A stretch of 64,000 nucleotides of DNA from Yoonia sp. SS1-5 (GTDB lineage Bacteria > Pseudomonadota > Alphaproteobacteria > Rhodobacterales > Rhodobacteraceae), in the NCBI RefSeq assembly GCF_038443705.2, contig NZ_CP151767.2:3587501-3651500 (forward strand), in the 5' to 3' direction. Under the pieces are notes generated by a model. It ran no database searches. It had not been told where the DNA came from and worked only from the letters and a program-made list of their open reading frames with translations. This document shows positions 14,140 through 59,631 of the stretch, in pieces. The position numbers and the translations under genes were made by a program. Each line of letters opens with the position of its first letter. The first letter of the stretch is position 1.

Positions 14140-15030
14140 TGTCTTGGTCCTTTTTAAAGTTTGGTTTGTTGCGGTGCAGAGCGTGTCTGCTTGCGTTTCG
14201 ATGAGGCTAAGATTGTCGCTGTTGGTGTGTTTTGGTAGGGCGTGGCCGATCACGAAAAAGGTGATGATTGTGAGGTGTTTTGGTGCTTGACACGCGTGAT
14301 GCGGGCTCTACTCGCGCTTCATGTGCGCCTACGCACAAAACTGATAGTGCATCTGTGCGCAAGCTGCCCTTGGGTTAAGCGCGGGCGTGGGCGAAAGGCT
14401 TCATCTGTTCACAGGTTACAGGGTTACCCAAAGGCGTGAGCGGCCAATATTTCCACCCGGTGCCGGGTCTGTGAGCGATCTGAAACCATTGAGGGGCCGT
14501 TTCGGCACATTCCAACAGGGAATCAGACCCGCCGGGCAGGCCAAAACGAGTCGGATGGGTGCGGGTGGCAAAGCCAAAAGGCAGGGAATCAACAAAATCT
14601 GGGATGGTGACGAGGCCTAAGGTCCCACCAAGAACACCGCACGCCTGAAATCCGGCACCTCTGGCGTCGTTCCGATGCAGTTTCCAGGAAAGGCAGTCAT
14701 AGTTGTCGTGAGACCATCTCGGCGGACGGGCAATTTGAGCCTAGAGCTAGCGCTTAGGATAGAGGCGAGTTTGACGTCGTAGGACAGCAGAACCGGAATT
14801 GGCAGCAATCCCCGTGCTTGGACTTTTCAGATCCGGCAAATTGCCGCCTCAAGGCCGATCAAGATGATGACCGTTCCGCGCCCCGGTACAGTCATCAAGT
14901 TTGTTGTCGCTGTGCTGCCTTGGGTCACCTAGAAAAAAGTCCCCTCCGCAGGCCGTCTGTCTACGCAGTTGCCGTTGGAGAAACGATCGTCACAGGCAGA
15001 ACACCGCAGATCGGTCGGTACTGACGTCGG
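14140..15030. other. 890-base stretch without a convincing gene
   Basis: Open frames exist at 14387-14620 (plus) and 14617-14808 (minus), but both have poor composition, no good ribosome site and no resemblance to a family I know. Several small GC hairpins are present, for example GTGCG/CGCAC at 14323-14336 and ACCCGG/CCGGGT near 14454-14467. It contains the promoter of the secreted-protein pair at its left end. A small RNA or a decayed gene is possible but not shown. Confidence 0.5.
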
Positions 15031-15486
15031 TCAGGTAATCGCCTCAAGCCGTTCCTTGGAGAGGTCACCCGGAACAATGGTGATCGGAACCGGCAAGCTG
15101 CCGGCCTGACGGCTGAGTTGTGTGACTAATGGTCCCGGTCCTTTGCTATCTGTCCCGGCCCCAAGAACAAGCACGCCGATCTCTTGGTCTTCTTTGATTT
15201 GAGACATCAACTCGACAAGCGGTTCGCCTTCGCGGATGATCAGCTCGGGGTGTACATCCTGTCTGTCACGCATCCATTTGGCGAAGACCTCAAAATGAAC
15301 TTCGATACGTTCACGGGCTTCGGCACGCATGATTTCGCCCACGCCAATCCAGTGATTGAACTCGTCAGGGGGAATGATTGACAGCACAGCGACGCCGCCA
15401 CCGGAATGCGCCGCACGCATCGCCGCAAAGCGCATCGCATTCAGACATTCCCGGCTGTCATCAAGCACGACAAGAAATTTGCGCAT
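15031..15486 (-). CDS. Universal stress protein (UspA family)
   Basis: 151 residues, single Usp domain. The first strand KFLVVLDDSRECLNAMRFA and the C-terminal VLVLGAGTDSKGPGPLVTQL followed by PITIVPG give the alpha/beta fold with an ATP-type loop, although the classical GxxG(9x)G(S/T) spacing is only partly matched. UspA proteins act in the cytoplasm in stress survival. It lies 34 bases upstream of the AbrB-type gene, but its stop is followed by a long gap, so it is the last gene of the minus-strand group. Confidence 0.85.
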   Translation of the reverse strand: MRKFLVVLDDSRECLNAMRFAAMRAAHSGGGVAVLSIIPPDEFNHWIGVGEIMRAEARERIEVHFEVFAKWMRDRQDVHPELIIREGEPLVELMSQIKEDQEIGVLVLGAGTDSKGPGPLVTQLSRQAGSLPVPITIVPGDLSKERLEAIT

Positions 15487-51808: not shown

Positions 51809-52624
51809 ATGCGTAGCGCATTGTGCATTTACGATCTGGATCAGCAGGCCGCAGAGGTTCTGTTTGCGACAGATGCGCATATCGAGGCGCCCAATTGGCA
51901 TCCTGATGGCTATCTGATCGTCAACAGTGCGGGCCGCCTTTACCGCGTGGACATGGCGCGACCGGAGTTGACCCCGATCGACACCGGATTTGCCCAAGCC
52001 TGCAACAATGATCACGGGGTTTCACCAGATGGTCAAACGCTTGCGATCAGTGATCGTAGCCGGACTGATGGGAGTTGCATCTACACGCTACCGGTTTCGG
52101 GTGGTACGCCCAGCAGAGTGACACAGCAACTGCCTTCCTACTGGCATGGCTGGTCCCCAGACGGCCAACGACTGGCTTATGTTGGTCGTCGTGACGGCCC
52201 GTTTGCGCTATTCACCTGCCAATTGGATGGGACCGACGAAACCTGTCTGACGGATGGCTTCGATCATGTGGATGGGCCCGATTACACCCCGGATGGGCAG
52301 TGGATCTGGTTCAATGCAGAGCGGGACGGCGCCGTCGATCTCTGGCGTATACGTCCGGATGGGACAGATTTACAGCAGATGACCGCCGACAGTCATGTGA
52401 ACTGGTTTCCGCATCCGTGCCCGAAAGGTGCGCATGTCTTGTATCTTGCCTATCCCCAAGGCACCGACGGTCACCCAGCGAACCGCGATGTCGCCCTGTG
52501 CCTGATGCCGGCGGACGGCGGGCAAACCCGGCAGCTTTTGCAAATTTGTGGCGGGCAGGGGAGTATCAATGTCCCGTGTTGGGCCCCTGACGGCCGCCGG
52601 TTTGCATTCATGCGCTTTTGTTGA
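51809..52624 (+). CDS. TolB-like WD40/PD40 beta-propeller protein
   Basis: 271 residues without a signal peptide. At least five PD40-type blades are visible: EAPNWHPDGYLIV, NDHGVSPDGQTLAIS, WHGWSPDGQRLAYVG, DGPDYTPDGQWIWFN and NVPCWAPDGRRFAFM. The family is often annotated as a TolB-related or biopolymer transporter protein, but it lacks the TolB N-terminal domain and export signal, so a cytoplasmic propeller is more likely. ATG 51809 follows the palindrome by 17 bases and has no clear ribosome site. Confidence 0.83.
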   Translation: MRSALCIYDLDQQAAEVLFATDAHIEAPNWHPDGYLIVNSAGRLYRVDMARPELTPIDTGFAQACNNDHGVSPDGQTLAISDRSRTDGSCIYTLPVSGGTPSRVTQQLPSYWHGWSPDGQRLAYVGRRDGPFALFTCQLDGTDETCLTDGFDHVDGPDYTPDGQWIWFNAERDGAVDLWRIRPDGTDLQQMTADSHVNWFPHPCPKGAHVLYLAYPQGTDGHPANRDVALCLMPADGGQTRQLLQICGGQGSINVPCWAPDGRRFAFMRFC

Positions 52625-52953
52625 ACGTCAGATATGTTTGACCTTTACGTTAAAACGCTGACCCAAACTCAAAGAGAGTAGACCCGACCTCCGCGCTAAA
52701 CGCAGCGAAAGCTATCGAAGAGCCCAATCTGTGACTTGATGTTTCTCGCTGCGTCCGCCCGCAGCACCGAAATCGTTGCCTGTGGCGCGCAACACCTCGG
52801 GCTTGAAGCGATCCTGAAAATCTAAGTGCGATCCAAAATGTATCGCAGACGTTGCCAGGGCAACAAGAATGGCGAAGAGACGAGCGTTTACGGAGCATTC
52901 AGGCGCTCACAATGCAGTTGGAGCAGGCTGACAAATCTGACCATGGGGCTCAA
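52625..52953. other. Unassigned stretch next to the broken protease gene
   Basis: No convincing gene. A minus-strand frame at 52650-52898 and another reading DFQDRFKPEVLRATGNDFGA near 52780-52840 look protein-like but match nothing I know and are short. It lies just beyond where the subtilase gene loses homology, so it may be debris of the deletion that removed the protease C-terminus. Confidence 0.4.
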
Positions 52954-53775
52954 CTAGCTTGGGCAGAGCGCTTCGACCTCAGGGCCATCATTGCCGACGG
53001 CCGCAATCAGGATCAATCTCCGCTCGACAGCCAAATCCAGCAATTTGTTGTAGGCGCCCGCCAGCGCCAGATTGACAAAGCGCACATCATTCTCTGCGAG
53101 CCAGTTGAGCGCGCGCAAGCGTTTCGGCGCCCGCCAAGGGTTCATCGCTGCCCTCAGTGCCAAAAACACTGGCGTTGTAGATCATCGCACCCACGAGTCG
53201 GCCCGACCCCGCCAAGGCCGTCGCCATATCTGTCCCGTGGCGGAGCGTCGGCGCCACGCCCTCAACGAGGGTCTATGAAACCACTCGCACGCCCGCAAGG
53301 GCGGGAACAGAGCTATCGACCCCGGTATCGACGATCCCAATTGGGGCGAGCGCGTGGCAGGCCCCCACATCCCACCGGATCAGCGCGTCGGCATACCTGC
53401 GTCTATCAGCCTGCACAGCATGCTGTTGCAGCCGATAAGCGTGATTGACCCCGACGGTTGCGGCGGGCACCTCGGCCTCCGACGTGGCAATTGCTTCGGC
53501 CCCGGTAACGCCATCGGGCAGCTGCCGGCGGAGAAGAACCAGATCTAGCCCGTTCAGGTCATCCACGGTCAGCACCCGAAGTTCTGCGCCTCTGCCGCTG
53601 ATTGCAATGCATTTGCCGTCGCACGGTCAGGCACGAGGGCCACTACGCGGTCGTCGTTCAGCAATGATGTTTAGGCGGTCTGCGCTTGCACCCCGAAACT
53701 TGTCACCACAGCGACCCCGCAAACAAGAAACAGAAGTGCGGCTCTCATTTTGGCAGGGCTGCGGGCTTTTTTCAT
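52954..53775 (-). pseudogene. S8 subtilisin-like serine protease, decayed and truncated
   Basis: The gene starts at ATG 53775 with AAGGAGA upstream and a signal peptide (MKKARSPAKMRAALLFLVCG onward). An in-frame TAA at 53673-53671 follows codon 34. The mature part resumes in the same frame (LLNDDRVVALVPDRATANAL), shifts frame near 53575-53588, shows the catalytic Asp in IGIVDTGVDS, meets TAG at 53275-53273, shows the catalytic His in RHGTDMATALAGSG, shifts frame in a GC run near 53108-53117, and reaches the oxyanion Asn in AAVGNDGPE. It ends at TAG 52956-52954 before the catalytic Ser. Two internal stops, two frameshifts and a missing 3' part make it non-functional. The SxGTS region is absent downstream. 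Confidence 0.87.
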
Positions 53776-53937
53776 GAATTGATGTCTCCTTCGCTTATCG
53801 GTGGTTGCAGCGGCAATTCATTAGGCGGCATAGATGGTTCGTCGGCGGCGGCTGGTGCGACAAAGAAAGAGTGAGGAATTGAACGCGGGTTCACCATAGG
53901 TCACGAAGTCTCAGTATCGGCTTATGTACAAGGGCGC

Positions 53938-54474
53938 ATGACCCCGGACGCGCGCCGGGCGTTTGCGGCTTTGCTGCTAAAGGACAAGGCTTTGGCGGCA
54001 GAGGTCGAAATATTACCGTCAGTTCGCGCTGAATTCGAAGGGACCACGCGCCATCCTGATCGGGAAAAGGGGTGGGCTGCACTGGAAGCCGCACTCGAAC
54101 AGCCACTTCGGCCAGCAAACGATAATCGCCGACCATAGGTGCCGATCCTGCGTTATGCAGGTGTGGCCGCCGCAGCGATAGCGATCTGACAGGTTGTCGC
54201 AGTGCCGCGTCTGGCCGAGGAAAGGATCGGGGAGGGGTTCAGCGTGGCCAGCGAGAACACGGGCCAAACCTTCGTCCTTCAGGTCCAATTTTTGCCGAAC
54301 ACCACGTTGGACGACATCGCCACAATACTGTTGCCCTTTAGCGGCACCATCAGCGATGGGCCAAGCGCAATTGGGTTGGTGCGTCTGGCCTTTGTAACAG
54401 AAGATGATCGCGCCCAAGGGTTGGAGGCGTTGCGCATGCGCTCGGATCTGGTGTCATTTATTGCCGAAGACTAG
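53938..54474 (+). pseudogene. Anti-sigma-factor-like membrane protein, interrupted by two in-frame stops
   Basis: A single frame runs from ATG 53938 to TAG 54472-54474 but is cut by TAG 54136-54138 and TGA 54187-54189. The first piece (66 residues) is a soluble helical N-terminus ending PLRPANDNRRP. Between the stops is the start of a membrane helix (ILRYAGVAAAAIAI), and after the TGA it continues QVVAVPRLAEE into a periplasmic domain FVLQVQFLPNTTLDDIATILLPFSG and ISDGPSAIGLVRLAF. The topology and the DGPSAIG pattern fit an anti-sigma factor. It converges on the sigma factor gene with a 9-base gap. The identity is moderately sure; that all three pieces were one gene is clear from the frame. 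Confidence 0.68.
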
Positions 54475-54483
54475 GCGTTGCAT

Positions 54484-55032
54484 CTAGCCGCCCAAGCGGC
54501 GCATTAGCGCTGCCTTCGCATGATAGATGCGCGTCTTAGTGGTGTCCGCGGGCCCGCCCTCCGCTTCCGAGATTTCCTGATAGTTCATGTCCTCGAAAAA
54601 TGCCAGTTGAGCAGCGATGCGGTGGTTGGGGCTTAGCGCGTCAATACATGCGCTGAGGCGCACCCGGTCCTGAGAGGCAATAGCGGCGGCCTCGGGGTTC
54701 GGGGCTGGATCAATACTGTCGGGCACTTCTTCCACAAAGGACAACCTGCCGCGTTTGCGCAGGGCGTCGACGACCTTGTTGCGTGTCATCGAAAAGAGCC
54801 GGGTCTCGACAGTCGATTGCCCTTTGAAGCGCACGGCGCTGTGCCAAAGCGCCACCATGGCGTCGTGGACCGCGCCGGCGGCGGTCTCAGGGCTCTGACA
54901 GCGGGAGCGCGCGAAGGCGTGATGACCATCACAATGGCGCAGGTAGAGCGCATGCATCGCCAATTTGTCGCCTGAGGCCAATTGCGCCCGCCAGTCACGA
55001 TCCACCTGGTCTGAGATCTCGCAATTGCTCAT
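54484..55032 (-). CDS. ECF-type sigma-70 family RNA polymerase sigma factor
   Basis: 182 residues from ATG 55032, preceded by GGAGGG; the frame stays open to 55191 without a better start. Region 2 is the block HAFARSRCQSPETAAGAVHD, MVALWHSAVRFKGQ and TRLFSMTRNKVVDALRKRGR. Region 4 is LSPNHRIAAQLAFFEDMNYQEISE with TTKTRIYHAKAALMRRL. The expected Trp after region 2.2 (SWLF in most relatives) is replaced by ETRLF. It is the only member of the locus with an unbroken frame. It is divergent from the RTX gene across 228 bases that must hold both promoters. Confidence 0.85.
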   Translation of the reverse strand: MSNCEISDQVDRDWRAQLASGDKLAMHALYLRHCDGHHAFARSRCQSPETAAGAVHDAMVALWHSAVRFKGQSTVETRLFSMTRNKVVDALRKRGRLSFVEEVPDSIDPAPNPEAAAIASQDRVRLSACIDALSPNHRIAAQLAFFEDMNYQEISEAEGGPADTTKTRIYHAKAALMRRLGG

Positions 55033-55260
55033 CGGCCCTCCGCGTTGGTCTTTGCTGCCTCGCGCAGAAGACAGGTCCAGAAGGACGGTCTGTTCCAGAG
55101 CACGTCTGAACCCTTCGGAGAAATTGTTTTGGAGGGTGCGGGACGTTGCCACTGTGCGGCGATTTGAAGACCGGGATTTTTTTGAACCCAATTGGGTGTC
55201 GCTCCGACCAAGGATCAGACCGGCCGTTGAAGCGGCTTAGATTCAGACAGGAGCTATCGG

Positions 55261-56515
55261 ATGACCCAACAAACGCAATAACCTTTTTCTGTGGCCGACC
55301 AAACGGTTCTGTCCTCGGCCAGCGCAGAAAAAACCCGCGCTGAGGTGGCCGAATTGTACGACGCGCTGACAGACTTTATGGAGGGCGACATTGAATTCAC
55401 TGCGTCTGGCAAACAGTTGAACCTGTGCGGTCGGGGCGGGGTCGTTGAAGAAATGCAGGTCGTCCGCGCCCTGATTGAAGCAGCGCAATCCATCCTGGAG
55501 ACGACCACCGAAACCCAGGAAGCCGCCGAAACTGTGGCTGACTTGACTGTGACGCTCAAGACCTCGCTGGATGTTGTGTCTAAACTGGGCGGGGTCTTTG
55601 GGTCAGCATTCAAGGTGGCCACGCAGTTCATCGACGGTGCGTTAGAGAAAATCGAGGACGGCGCCAATTCCTTTGAAAAGAAGCTAGGGAAATTCAACGA
55701 TCTGGCCGATGATTTGATCCCCGTTCTGGAAAACACGGCAGCCTTCTTCGAGGTCGGTCTCGAACCTTTGATCGAAGGCTACATTCGAGAGATCGGACAG
55801 CTGCGCGCGACGGTCGATATCCTGCACGATGCGGTGGATACCTTGGGACAAACCGTGCCAATTGCGGGCCTCGACACCGGCGCCGCCGCCGCCGGCACGC
55901 CGGAGCTGCCATTGCGCCTGGCGCAAGCGCTTGTCGGTGTCCAAGCCTACGCGGCACAAATGTCCGGCCAGGTTGACCGCTTGTCCAATGATGCTGGCCT
56001 GCCGGGTTCACGCTTTTTTGGGGGACGGGGATCGTGGGCTTGGGGCCATCGCCAGACAATTAGGTGGAACGCTGGATGTCATCGACACAGCCACCGGTGT
56101 TGTCGCTGAGGTCAATGGCGTCATCGGCTTTCTGGCCGACCCACTGGAACTGGTGGCCAATGTGGTCCGCCCGATCGAACCGTTGCTGAATGCATCGGGC
56201 CTTGTCTTCAAGTTCACGGTCGAGCCGATCCTAAACCCGATCATCAGAGCCACCGGCATCGAGCGCATTTTCAATCCTGCAATCGAATTGATCCTCGAAC
56301 TTGTCCCGGAGGTCGAAGGGATCGAGCGGCTGGGCGACGCGTTGTTTGCGGTCATCAACGAGACCATCGTCGAAAGCCTGGTAGGCTTTGCCGAGGAATA
56401 AGCCCTGGAAGAATTATTTGAGACAGACGAGGACGCGCGTGATCGCCATCGTGAAGGTGATCGCAACAGCGCCGAGCAGAAGAATAAAGATCAGACCAAG
56501 GAGTTGTTCGAGTAG
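55261..56515 (+). pseudogene. RTX gene fragment: helical N-terminal region
   Basis: About 410 codons rich in Ala, Glu, Leu and Val, with no cleavable signal, as expected for type I secretion. VVEEMQVVRALIEAAQSILETT and GQLRATVDILHDAVDTLGQTV (each cut short here) suggest long amphipathic helices or coiled coils. After the frame change at 56014-56024 it goes on as GDGDRGLGAIARQLGGTLDV and GFLADPLELVANVVRPIEPLL to FAEE-stop. The segment ALEELFETDEDARDRHREGD between the stops at 56399 and 56513 is an acidic-basic linker. It is not similar to a domain I can name. Confidence 0.7.
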
Positions 56516-57085
56516 ACCTCCACCGATGTGGCCACGGCTGTGGCCGTCTTTACCGGCGAACAATTTAGCGAGGCCGTCAAAGAGGCGCTGATCCGGCTCG
56601 TGACAAAGAACGTCCTTCCGCGCGACGTGGTTGACGAGGTACTGGACAAGGTCGCTAACGTGGACTTTGCTGATTTGGCGCCCGTGCAGAACGATGCCGG
56701 TGTGGACTTGCAACTCAGTGATGGCGTGATCCGGCTGGCCGATCCGGGACCGGCGGATGCAAACGGACGTATTATCCTCACCGGGACTGACCGCGACGAC
56801 ACATTGATTGACAATAACGGGTCAAATCTGTTGCAGGGCGGATCTGGCAGCGATTTATTCCTGGTGGCACAGGGAAATGACACTGTCGATGGTGGCGACG
56901 GCGAAGACTTTGTCTTGTTTAACGACAAGATCGCCAATTTCCGCTTCACCTATAGAATGGCGAACTGATCCTGCGGCACCTGACGCCCGAGGCGGCAGGT
57001 GTATACGCCGGGACGAACCAAATATCAGACGTAGAGCACTTCAAGTTCTCGGATGTCGGCGTGGCGGCCGAGGCGCTGGAGGATC
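56516..57085 (+). pseudogene. RTX gene fragment: first calcium-binding nonapeptide block
   Basis: The codons after TAG 56515 read VATAVAVFTGEQFSEAV and then the RTX motifs LTGTDRDDTLIDNNGSN, LQGGSGSDLFLVAQGNDTV and GGDGEDFVLFNDKIANFRFTY. At 56951-56961 the sense moves to another frame as ELILRHLTPEAAGVYAGTNQ and ISDVEHFKFSDVGVAAEALE. Glycine and aspartate spacing (GGxGxDxxx) is the classical parallel beta-roll. The following ISDVEHFKFSD is the usual connector in roseobacter RTX proteins. Confidence 0.78.
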
Positions 57086-58168
57086 GCCGATGTGGTGGCC
57101 GGGCCCGAGGATGCGTCCGACACCCCGCCCGAGGGCTTGACGCGCGACCGCGCGCGCTTGGTCAAAACAATCGAATTGGCTGATGGCGGGGCGGTGGCAA
57201 TCGCCTCCCCCGGTGCCAGGGCGACGGGAACCGCGCCGATGGAAGTGCGCGCACCACATGGTTCTGTCGTGGTCGCGGATATCGTCTTTGCGAACCAGGT
57301 AAGCGGTATCAATCTTGACGCGATTGCGCTGGTCAATGGCGACTTTGTTGTCGCATTCTCGCAGCAGGGCAACATCATCTACCAAGTGTTTGGTGCCGAT
57401 GGATCGGCTGTGTCTCCGCCTGACGTGATGGGTTTTGACGCCGGTCGAGCGAACACGATGAACGGCCCACCTGACGTCCTGGCCCATGCGGATAGCGGCT
57501 TTGCGCTCTTTTACTCTGTCCAGAGTGTTTTGCCGGCCTGGCGCGCGCAGAGGTTCGAGAATGACGGCACCCCTGCGGCCGAAGATTTCCTTACGAAAGT
57601 CAGCAAAGCACAACAGGTCTCGGCGGCCGAGCTGGTCAACGGAAATGTCGTCGTGACCTATCGCGAAGTGGCTGGTTTCGATCCCGACGTTCGCTTTGAC
57701 ATCTTGCGACCCGACGGGACGCTACAGGTTCAATTTCGTGAAATTGCGAGCGATTGGAGCAGCAATAACGACCTGCATGCGCTCGAGGTTGTGGCCCTGG
57801 CGGATGGAGGCTTTGTGATTCTTGTCGCCGATCACAAACGCGATCTGATCAAGATGCAGCGCTTTGACGCGAACGGTACTCTGGACAGCAGCAGCCAGGC
57901 CCTGAACCTCACCGCTAACGCGGACGCAATCTTGGCCGGTGTGGGCAGTGTTCGCGATATTGAGGCCGTGTTGCTTGATGGCGGCGATATCCAAATGTCC
58001 CTTATCGACGGCAACGGGCAGACGCAGACGATCGTCTTTGATGCCTACAATTCGCTCCGGGATTTGAACAAAGCACGAACGAGGCGGCAGGTGATGGGGG
58101 CATCGACCGTGTCTTCAGCACGGGAAACGTCAACGTTTTTGACGGGTACGACGGGGATGACGACCTGA
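57053..58168 (+). pseudogene. RTX gene fragment: propeller-like repeat region
   Basis: The open frame of 371 codons begins in overlap with the previous frame; real continuity starts near 57085 (ADVVAGPEDASDTPPEGL). Repeating units of about 50 residues follow the scheme L-ADGG-x-V-x-x-V/A ... x-x-FGADGS or QRFDANG: ELADGGAVAIAS, ALVNGDFVVAFSQQGN, VLAHADSGFALFYS, ELVNGNVVVTYREV, ALADGGFVILVADHK. Such repeats occur in large Ca-binding surface proteins. The sense leaves this frame at about 58060-58075; the remaining 30 codons are an artefact. Confidence 0.7.
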
Positions 58169-59328
58169 ATGGTGGTCAACGGTTTGACCGCTTCGAGGGT
58201 GGCGAGGGCAATGTCGTCCCGCGCGGCGGCAATGGGAATGACCGGATCCTCAGTGGTAGCGGCGCGGATGTGTTCGTATTCAACACCGAAACGGTGCCGC
58301 TGCACGATGAGACGACACTGGATGTCAGCGGCCTAGCCCTGAGCCTTGGGCAAGATGTTATTGCCGACTTCGACGTCGGCCAGGACAAGCAGAATCTACG
58401 CGATGTGGCCGGGGTAACGGATATGCGGGACCCGGATCTGGAGGTGACGCAGCAGGGCGCCGACACGGTGGTCAAGATCGACAACAGCAGTATCCTGCTG
58501 GAAGACGTCGTCGCCACTGACCTGACCATTGCCAACTTTCTGACGGACCGGCGAGTGGTCATGGAATATGGCGAGGTCACCATTAACGGCGACTTTGTCA
58601 CCGTCGATCTGGAGACCGATTTTGAAAACCCGGTGGTGCTGACGTTCATCAACGGCATCGCGCAAGACGGCGTCATCGACACCCGCATCCGCAATGTCGA
58701 AAGCGACAGCTTCGAAATCCGGCTGCAATCGGTGGATGACCAAGCGGCGCTGCTGGAAAAGATGGTGGATTTCGTGGTCGTTGAAGCAGGCGTCTATCAG
58801 TTGGAAAATGGTGCGGTCATCGAGGCTGGGCTGGTCAGCACTGACAAAGTCTACCAAAGCACCCTGCGCGAAGGCTTCGAGAGCGTGGAGCTTAGGGCCG
58901 ATTTCAATGGTGATGCGCCCGCTTCGTTTACCAGCGTAAACACGGTGAACGGTGGTGATTTTGTAACCGCACGGGCCGATGACATAACAGCCGACAGCTT
59001 TGAGCTGGCCCTCGCAGAGGCCGAGGCCAACACCGATGGTCACGTAGTCGAGGATATCGCATTCCTGGCGATTGAGCAGGGCGCTGTTGGCGATTTCACG
59101 ACTGATACGCTTTTTGTGAACTCTGATCGGCTGGCATTGGAAGCTGATGTCGATCTGATCCAAATCTCGGAATTGCGTGGCGCGGATACTGCCGTAATAC
59201 GCCATGACACCGCGACAGGTGAAATTTTCGTCCAAGAGGGCACAACTTTTGATCACGAAACAGGGCATGCATCTGATGGGATTTCCATGCTCGATTTGCG
59301 CTCAATGAAGGCTTCGTGTTCCGCTTAG
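58076..59328 (+). pseudogene. RTX gene fragment: second nonapeptide block and twin C-terminal domains
   Basis: In this frame ACG 58075 onward reads NEAAGDGGIDRVFSTGN, FDGYDGDDDLNGG and GGNGNDRILSGSGADVFVFN, a second RTX block. Then two copies of a C-terminal domain follow: NPVVLTFINGIAQDG, RIRNVESDSFEIRLQ and VDFVVVEAGVYQLENG (about 58630-58850), and ASFTSVNTVNGGDFVTAR, DITADSFELALAEAEANTDG and IAFLAIEQGAVG (about 58915-59095). The frame ends ..LDLRSMKASCSA, but another frame reads ALNEGFVFRLGAAPPSSS, so the true C-terminus may be there. No stop interrupts these 420 codons. Confidence 0.72.
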
Positions 59329-59631
59329 GCGCGGCACCGCCGTCGAGCAGCAACAATCGGCAACCAGAATAGCCGGTCGTTCCCCATGACCGGAACCCCA
59401 TTTTCTTCTCGGGATTTAGGGTTCTGACCCTAGGTCGCAGCAAAGGTCTGATCCGGGCCAGAACTCCGTAACATCTGGGCTGATATTGCGTGACACCGGG
59501 CATTGATAGGATACAGAAAATCTGCTGCAACCAGTCAAAGATGCGCGACGTTAGACGGCTTTGGAAATTGACGGGTTTACTTTTGGCCCATCCATTGGCT
59601 TTTTGCACATGTGGCGGGCGAAGGAGGCAAA
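59329..59631. other. Gap between the RTX pseudogene and nadD
   Basis: About 300 bases without a gene. An inverted repeat CCGGTC/GACCGG (59373-59378, 59388-59393) followed by AACCCCATTTTCTT could be the old terminator of the RTX gene. The TAG-type palindrome at 59416-59433 comes next. The right end must carry the nadD promoter and the ribosome site GAAGGAGG at 59620-59627. Confidence 0.55.
59416..59433. repeat. Short palindromic repeat, CTAGGGT type
   Basis: TTAGGGT-TCTG-ACCCTAG: 7-base arms with one mismatch at the outer pair. It differs from the copy at 39061 at two bases. It lies 87 bases beyond the end of the RTX pseudogene, the only copy not next to an intact stop codon, and its outer mismatch suggests decay. 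Confidence 0.65.

Follow-up and report, generated by a model that had tools for sequence, protein, structure and literature searches.

A probably dead ECF sigma factor module before nadD in Yoonia sp. SS1-5 and its intact relatives

Nearest described systems and the locus of strain SS1-5

Many extracytoplasmic function (ECF) sigma factors are without a known signal or target. The nearest described system to the one treated here is RpoE6-EcfR6-SMa0142 of Sinorhizobium meliloti (ECF26), in which the genes for an ECF sigma factor, a membrane anti-sigma factor and a serine protease lie side by side. In the passages of PMC6180224 that concern it, the protease and anti-sigma genes are reported as targets of the sigma factor. 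A similar set of genes is present in a stretch of 64,000 nucleotides from Yoonia sp. SS1-5 (NZ_CP151767.2, positions 3,587,501 to 3,651,500), hereafter called the window, whose own numbering is used throughout. Between 52.6 and 59.6 kb, the gene order is S8 subtilase (minus strand), anti-sigma factor (plus), ECF sigma factor (minus) and RTX protein (plus). We consider it likely that this block is a dead and probably transferred copy of an ECF sigma factor module, intact relatives of which are scattered in the family and in other Alphaproteobacteria. A decaying insert is nothing unusual in itself, yet this one points to a conserved sigma/anti-sigma/subtilase regulon that has RTX proteins as a main output. 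Layout, promoter and target class of this ECF group can be read from sequence, which makes the regulon directly testable.

The pSymA record of S. meliloti holds an S8 gene (34.5% identity to the S8 protein of the intact module L084) that is divergent from a sigma factor gene; from plasmid and layout we infer that these are SMa0142 and rpoE6. The sigma factor taken as RpoE6 is 24% identical to that of the window, a value that does not place the latter among the ECF26 sigma factors. The pSymA anti-sigma factor differs in its periplasmic part and is unmatched by the anti-sigma profile of the window family. The promoter given for RpoE6 is GGAATA/GT, as opposed to TTTGAACC/CGAC here, and the passages on RpoE6 name no RTX target (PMC6180224). 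Since the sigma factor, the periplasmic part of the anti-sigma factor and the promoter differ from the RpoE6 type, the module was not filed in ECF26.

Two further systems share features with the locus. On plasmid pR1a of Sphingomonas sp. R1, genes for a sigma factor, a zf-HC2 protein and an S8 peptidase stand in a row in one direction. The anti-sigma factor of pR1a has the periplasmic domain of the window family and its sigma factor is 34% identical; no RTX gene was found in the 10.5 kb examined. In ECF54, a subtilase domain protein is encoded near the sigma factor gene, as here. According to the part of PMC8999054 consulted, ECF54 is proposed to work by proteolysis without an anti-sigma factor, whereas an anti-sigma gene accompanies the S8 gene in 28 of 28 modules studied here. 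The open-access literature, searched by titles and abstract openings, yielded no description of a sigma/anti-sigma/S8/RTX module or of the promoter TTTGAACC-N16-CGAC.

The features of the block are as follows (L numbers denote regions compared with it, G numbers genomes):

52625..59569, no strand: insert of about 6.95 kb between a PD40 gene (end at 52624) and a conserved stretch before nadD (GGGTTTACTTT from 59573)
52957..53777, minus strand: S8 subtilase relic, recognised by tblastn with the intact S8 proteins of L084 and L085
53858..53866, plus strand: possible remnant of the anti-sigma promoter, weak, a -10-like CGACAAAG without a matching -35, seen by eye beside the L085 site
53896..54474, plus strand: anti-sigma relic, 41% identical to residues 1-188 of the L085 anti-sigma factor
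54484..55032, minus strand: ECF sigma factor gene, open frame of 182 aa with Pfam regions 2 and 4
55181..55208, plus strand: well-preserved promoter TTTGAACC-N16-CGAC before the RTX relic, exact match, profile score 28.4
55261..59328, plus strand: RTX protein relic, pieces of which match the RTX neighbours of intact modules in L101, L087 and L092

Decay of the block and its insertion site

The S8 relic is 47-49% and 67% identical to the S8 proteins of L084 and L085 in two reading frames. It contains stops at 53671 and 53273 and two frame changes (frames -1, -3, -1), and it ends at about 52957, where the intact protein of L085 continues for 109 residues including the GTS serine motif. The relic thereby retains the Asp and His motifs without the Ser region, an incomplete Asp-His-Ser triad; its intact relatives match PF00082. 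The anti-sigma relic stays in a single frame throughout, with stops at 54136 and 54187, and the codon aligned with residue 1 of the L085 anti-sigma factor is not a start codon.

In the RTX relic, stops are found at 56399 and 56513. The stop at 55279 is doubtful: it is codon 7 of the frame starting at ATG 55261, yet lies just before GTG 55291 and may be upstream of the true start of the gene. Frame changes lie near 56030, 56960, 57085 and 58170 (the middle two located by three-frame translation) and, in comparison with L101, an internal segment near 57 kb is probably missing. PF00353 scores over its cut-off in the piece 56528-56965, so that the calcium-binding nonapeptide repeats of RTX proteins are still recognised in a gene that is broken overall. 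The N-terminal pieces match the RTX neighbour of L101 at 40% and 54%, and the C-terminal piece those of L087 and L092 at 36% and 34%, respectively. The C-terminal piece (58270-59328) is also 25-32% like parts of haloarchaeal plasmid proteins, one of which is annotated as S8 peptidase, and of Leisingera G8-domain proteins.

The original prediction, made from the letters of the window, had listed seven in-frame stops and at least six frame changes. All seven coordinates hold stops in the reading direction of their gene, with 55279 alone in doubt, and six frame changes could be followed, the S8 relic contributing two and the RTX relic four. The 3' truncation of the S8 gene, the lost anti-sigma start and the missense load of the sigma factor gene are lesions beyond that list.

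The sigma factor gene had been regarded as whole. Its product scores over the cut-offs of PF04542, PF08281 and TIGR02937 and has only regions 2 and 4, as expected of an ECF sigma factor. In an alignment of 30 sigma proteins, from which the far paralogue L035 was not counted, it nevertheless deviates at 8 of the 28 columns with a conservation of at least 90% among the others, compared to 0-4 columns in 28 relatives. At the 80% conservation level the window protein deviates at 10 of 46 columns and the relative L093 at 11 of 47. The end branch of the window protein in the sigma tree (1.05) is the longest in its supported group of four. Judged from these comparisons, the gene is probably eroding too, despite its open frame.

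The gene nadD is present in 56 of 56 genus genomes, and the junction before it was compared in 29 sibling loci (L109-L137) over approximately 1.5 kb on each side. A PD40 gene directly precedes nadD in 10 of them and other genes stand there in the remainder, so the junction looks like a variable site among siblings. In all ten aligned siblings the PD40 stop is followed by the stretch GG[G/C]TTTACTTT and then by nadD, with the insert absent; in the window, the distance from the PD40 gene to the conserved stretch is about 6.95 kb. A sigma search of 36 genus genomes, including the strain's own, yielded two relatives near 40% identity, located elsewhere in their genomes, and otherwise values of at most 32%. 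The C-terminal RTX piece found only three weak matches across the 55 other genus genomes. Since the module is absent at this junction in ten aligned siblings, it looks acquired and then lost rather than an old system of the genus, and arrival by transfer with later decay appears to be the simplest reading. The predicted degeneration as a unit is supported, with the sigma factor gene probably eroding as well. The GC content of the insert is ordinary, so composition gives no support for transfer. Plasmid records contained no close intact copy, neither with the sigma query (2 records, both below 35%) nor with the C-terminal RTX query (8 records at 25-32%).

Outside the block, open frames of at least 100 aa cover the window and leave a single gap above 350 bp (14253-15031), and the two genes flanking the insert look whole when set beside those of siblings. 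The left end of the insert (52620-52725) is 81% like an intergenic stretch of the same genome (G000:C2:2814583-2814689), and there are shorter matches close to one integrase-like and several transposase-like frames.

Intact modules and their shared promoter

With E 1e-20 as the limit, 45 of 394 family genomes, the strain's own included, matched the sigma query, at 47 places in all. Twenty of the 46 other places were fetched, 13 as best by rank and 7 from lower ranks. Sigma, anti-sigma and S8 genes occur together in 19 of these 20 family regions and in 9 of 14 further regions (L035-L041, L043-L049). The cluster is lacking in L038-L041, around more distant sigma relatives, and in L049. In total, 28 of 34 related regions contain an intact sigma/anti-sigma/S8 cluster, and L100 equals the window in all four genes, order and strands, so that the search for intact clusters proposed with the original prediction was successful.

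A facing arrangement of sigma and anti-sigma genes is seen in 15 of the 20 family regions, among them 11 of the 13 chosen by rank, and the exact S8/anti-sigma/sigma layout of the window is found in 11 of the 20. Judging by the sigma tree, the facing arrangement is old; L095 and L101 are one-directional although they lie within the facing group. In the more distant relatives L035-L037 and L043-L048 all three genes run in one direction. On the evidence of the relatives and of this tree, the facing anti-sigma gene of the window is an inherited layout and not damage. The strain's own genome also holds a second intact module (L035, 6459-12729; G000:C2, about 1629-1636 kb) with four genes in one direction, comprising an RTX frame of 1082 aa and a sigma factor only 27% identical to that of the window.

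An RTX gene lies at most 700 bp from 9 of 22 modules, namely 8 of 19 family modules and the own paralogue L035; L036 and L037 have none at that distance. In the subset chosen by rank only, the value is 4 of 12. The genomes are rich in RTX repeats (19-203 matches per genome), and a control with random segments is therefore important. Control DNA consisted of 20 regions from 16 of the module genomes and the own genome; in 601 of 36,067 random 2.8-kb segments (1.7%) an RTX gene was as near. The corresponding binomial tails are 4e-11 (9 of 22) and 3e-5 (4 of 12). The occurrence of RTX anywhere in a 19-kb region was rejected as evidence for linkage, being too weak (10 of 23 module regions compared to 4 of 20 control regions), and adjacency was used instead.

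An unbiased search for any 5-letter and 4-letter words 15-17 bases apart was applied to 55 upstream regions from 16 modules, the window included. The best word pair, TGAAC...CGAC, occurs in 25 of the 55 regions, whereas the best pair in each of three shuffles reached 4 or 5. The full form is TTTGAACC-N16-CGAC; 48 of 59 matches in 23 scanned regions, chance matches within genes included, have the N16 spacing. Of the RTX genes adjacent to family modules, 8 of 8 are preceded by this form, as are the anti-sigma genes of 12 of 15 facing modules; several modules also have it before the S8 gene. The usual ECF promoter forms were tried and rejected: GGAAY-N14-18-CGT occurs in 1 of 55 regions and GGAAY-N14-17-CGTC in none of the 55, with shuffles yielding 2.5 and 0.56, respectively.

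A promoter profile was built from 21 sites excluding that of the window, with training scores of 20-33. The site before the RTX relic scores 28.4 bits and is the only one of at least 12 within the 64 kb; 380 kb of control DNA contain four sites of at least 12 and none of at least 20. The exact pattern outnumbers its reversed form by 112 to 34 in 18 module genomes and by 178 to 132 in 55 genus genomes, a difference in excess with a Fisher p of 7e-5. The shared promoter before RTX and anti-sigma genes supports the view that RTX, anti-sigma and, in part, protease genes formed one regulon, and recognition of TTTGAACC-N16-CGAC by the sigma factor is suggested by this linkage. The original prediction that the four genes were one system agrees with the intact clusters, with L100 in the same order, and with the shared promoters; those before RTX genes support its assignment of the RTX protein as output. 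Joint loss of regulators, protease and output is what would be expected of a true functional unit, and the module offers a concrete control circuit for some of the many RTX repeats of these bacteria.

Proposed circuit, rival readings and further promoter-linked genes

A zf-HC2 domain is recognised in 8 of 26 members of the anti-sigma family. The structural model of the L048 anti-sigma factor comprises a helical N-terminal part, one long membrane helix and a periplasmic β-α-β-β-α-β domain, with a mean pLDDT of 71 overall and values of 80-90 in the periplasmic domain. This domain matches the Fervidolysin_NPro-like subtilase prodomain model in 13 of 27 members (best E 1.2e-4), the next family in 2 of 27. 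A sequence search of the PDB with the domain gave one chance-level match.

With these domains, the membrane anti-sigma factor would hold the sigma factor until an extracytoplasmic signal lets the exported S8 subtilase bind or cut its periplasmic domain. The freed sigma factor would then read TTTGAACC-N16-CGAC promoters, giving the RTX gene, for a large calcium-binding surface protein, as output, the anti-sigma gene as negative feedback and, in some modules, the protease gene. With its own sigma-dependent promoter, the anti-sigma gene would provide this feedback and could leave the sigma operon and face the sigma gene. In strain SS1-5, a copy would have come to sit between two adjacent genes before stops, frame changes, truncation, the loss of a start and missense changes degraded its four genes. 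The bait-and-protease step is a preferred guess and not a result; if true, it would amount to a novel mode of envelope sensing. The full proposal, which we advance tentatively and regard as doubtful in its entirety, is an undescribed ECF module family whose anti-sigma factors carry a prodomain-like bait for a dedicated exported subtilase. Binding or cutting of the bait would report on the cell surface, and the freed sigma factor would drive a core of RTX surface proteins and, in some lineages, type VI (tssB, tssK, vgrG), VRP1 and Hint genes through the one promoter. The window would then show a natural loss of the entire circuit at once, from which the output promoter survived.

Several points weigh against these conclusions. 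RTX genes adjoin fewer than half of the modules, and those that do belong to several different kinds. For seven of the 20 family regions, the neighbouring genes had been glanced at before the choice was made, which could favour window-like layouts. L091, a close sigma relative, stands without a module, and no TTTGAACC promoter precedes the RTX gene of the own paralogue L035. The link between sigma factor and promoter is indirect. The prodomain likeness is weak, most of the scores seen falling under the Pfam cut-off, and the fold class is widespread, with ACT and S6 ranked alongside prosubtilisins and no E of 0.001 or better. A likeness to the prodomains of the module proteases themselves is not claimed (hhalign probability 7.4).

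That the protease is only another target of the sigma factor, without a sensing role, is a reading we take seriously, if with less than even belief. It would correspond to SMa0142, the S. meliloti protease gene reported as a target in the passages on RpoE6 (PMC6180224), and in some modules the promoter does precede the S8 gene. However, S8 accompanies sigma and anti-sigma genes in 28 of 34 regions, in contrast to the RTX target, which is optional, and the periplasmic domain of the anti-sigma factor resembles a subtilase prodomain; neither point is decisive. It is improbable that the sigma factor is alive beside dead partners, unrestrained and kept for other targets. Its open 182-aa frame, with both sigma regions recognised by Pfam, would fit, as would one other site of at least 20 in the genome among four own sites scored (L246, 20.6), but the changes at 8 of 28 near-invariant columns and the longest end branch of the group argue for erosion.

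Sequencing or assembly errors in a living module are very improbable. The breaks come from one assembly, yet the damage goes beyond indels: there are stop codons, one gene is without its start, another without its 3' end, and the unbroken sigma gene carries missense changes. It is confined to the insert as far as seen. Least credible of all is a flip of the anti-sigma gene in this strain that started the decay. The one-directional order of L035-L037 and L043-L048 could suggest such an event, but the relatives refute it, with facing genes in 15 of 20 family regions and a layout that is old on the sigma tree; a repeat search found no inverted repeats at the borders of the anti-sigma gene. We retain a decayed and probably transferred copy of the module as the preferred reading.

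Other genes behind the promoter were surveyed among the 112 sites of the module genomes, of which 93 were read here and another 15 fall within the module regions described above. Many weaker sites inside coding frames are probably due to chance. Strong sites precede RTX genes in G422, G274 and G184, on contigs other than that of the sigma gene, and the RTX protein of G274 is a weak relative of the N-terminus of the RTX relic. Type VI components follow the promoter in a few genomes, namely VipA/TssB in G285 and G298, TssK in G298 and a VgrG-type protein in G322 (L218, L221, L222, L170). The names tssB, TssK and VgrG are those we take to apply to the Pfam matches, and our readings of lipoprotein and export signals are presumptive likewise. 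Type VI secretion was rejected as a general target: among scorable loci, the full promoter precedes tssB in 2 of 8 from module genomes compared to 0 of 14 others, both positive loci having been known beforehand, with 5 of 27 loci unscorable and the long-frame loci L287-L289 excluded. The type VI link is thus sporadic.

Further promoter-linked genes encode a Hint protein (G094), a P450 (G298), an ECF sigma factor (G322), a small TPR protein (G285) and RGS-like proteins in G298 and in G413, the latter under its cut-off. Proteins with a VRP1 domain are found behind the promoter in G360 and G400, in related frames of more than 1000 aa (L207, L195). In G184 and G309, strong sites precede the genes of a related pair of proteins of about 450 aa that have almost no Pfam matches (L211 312-1655, L183 95-1441), that of G309 beside the sigma gene. 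In the genome of strain SS1-5, a frame of 4280 aa (G000:C2:2655056-2666479) contains RTX repeat matches that recur at regular intervals of 678 bp.

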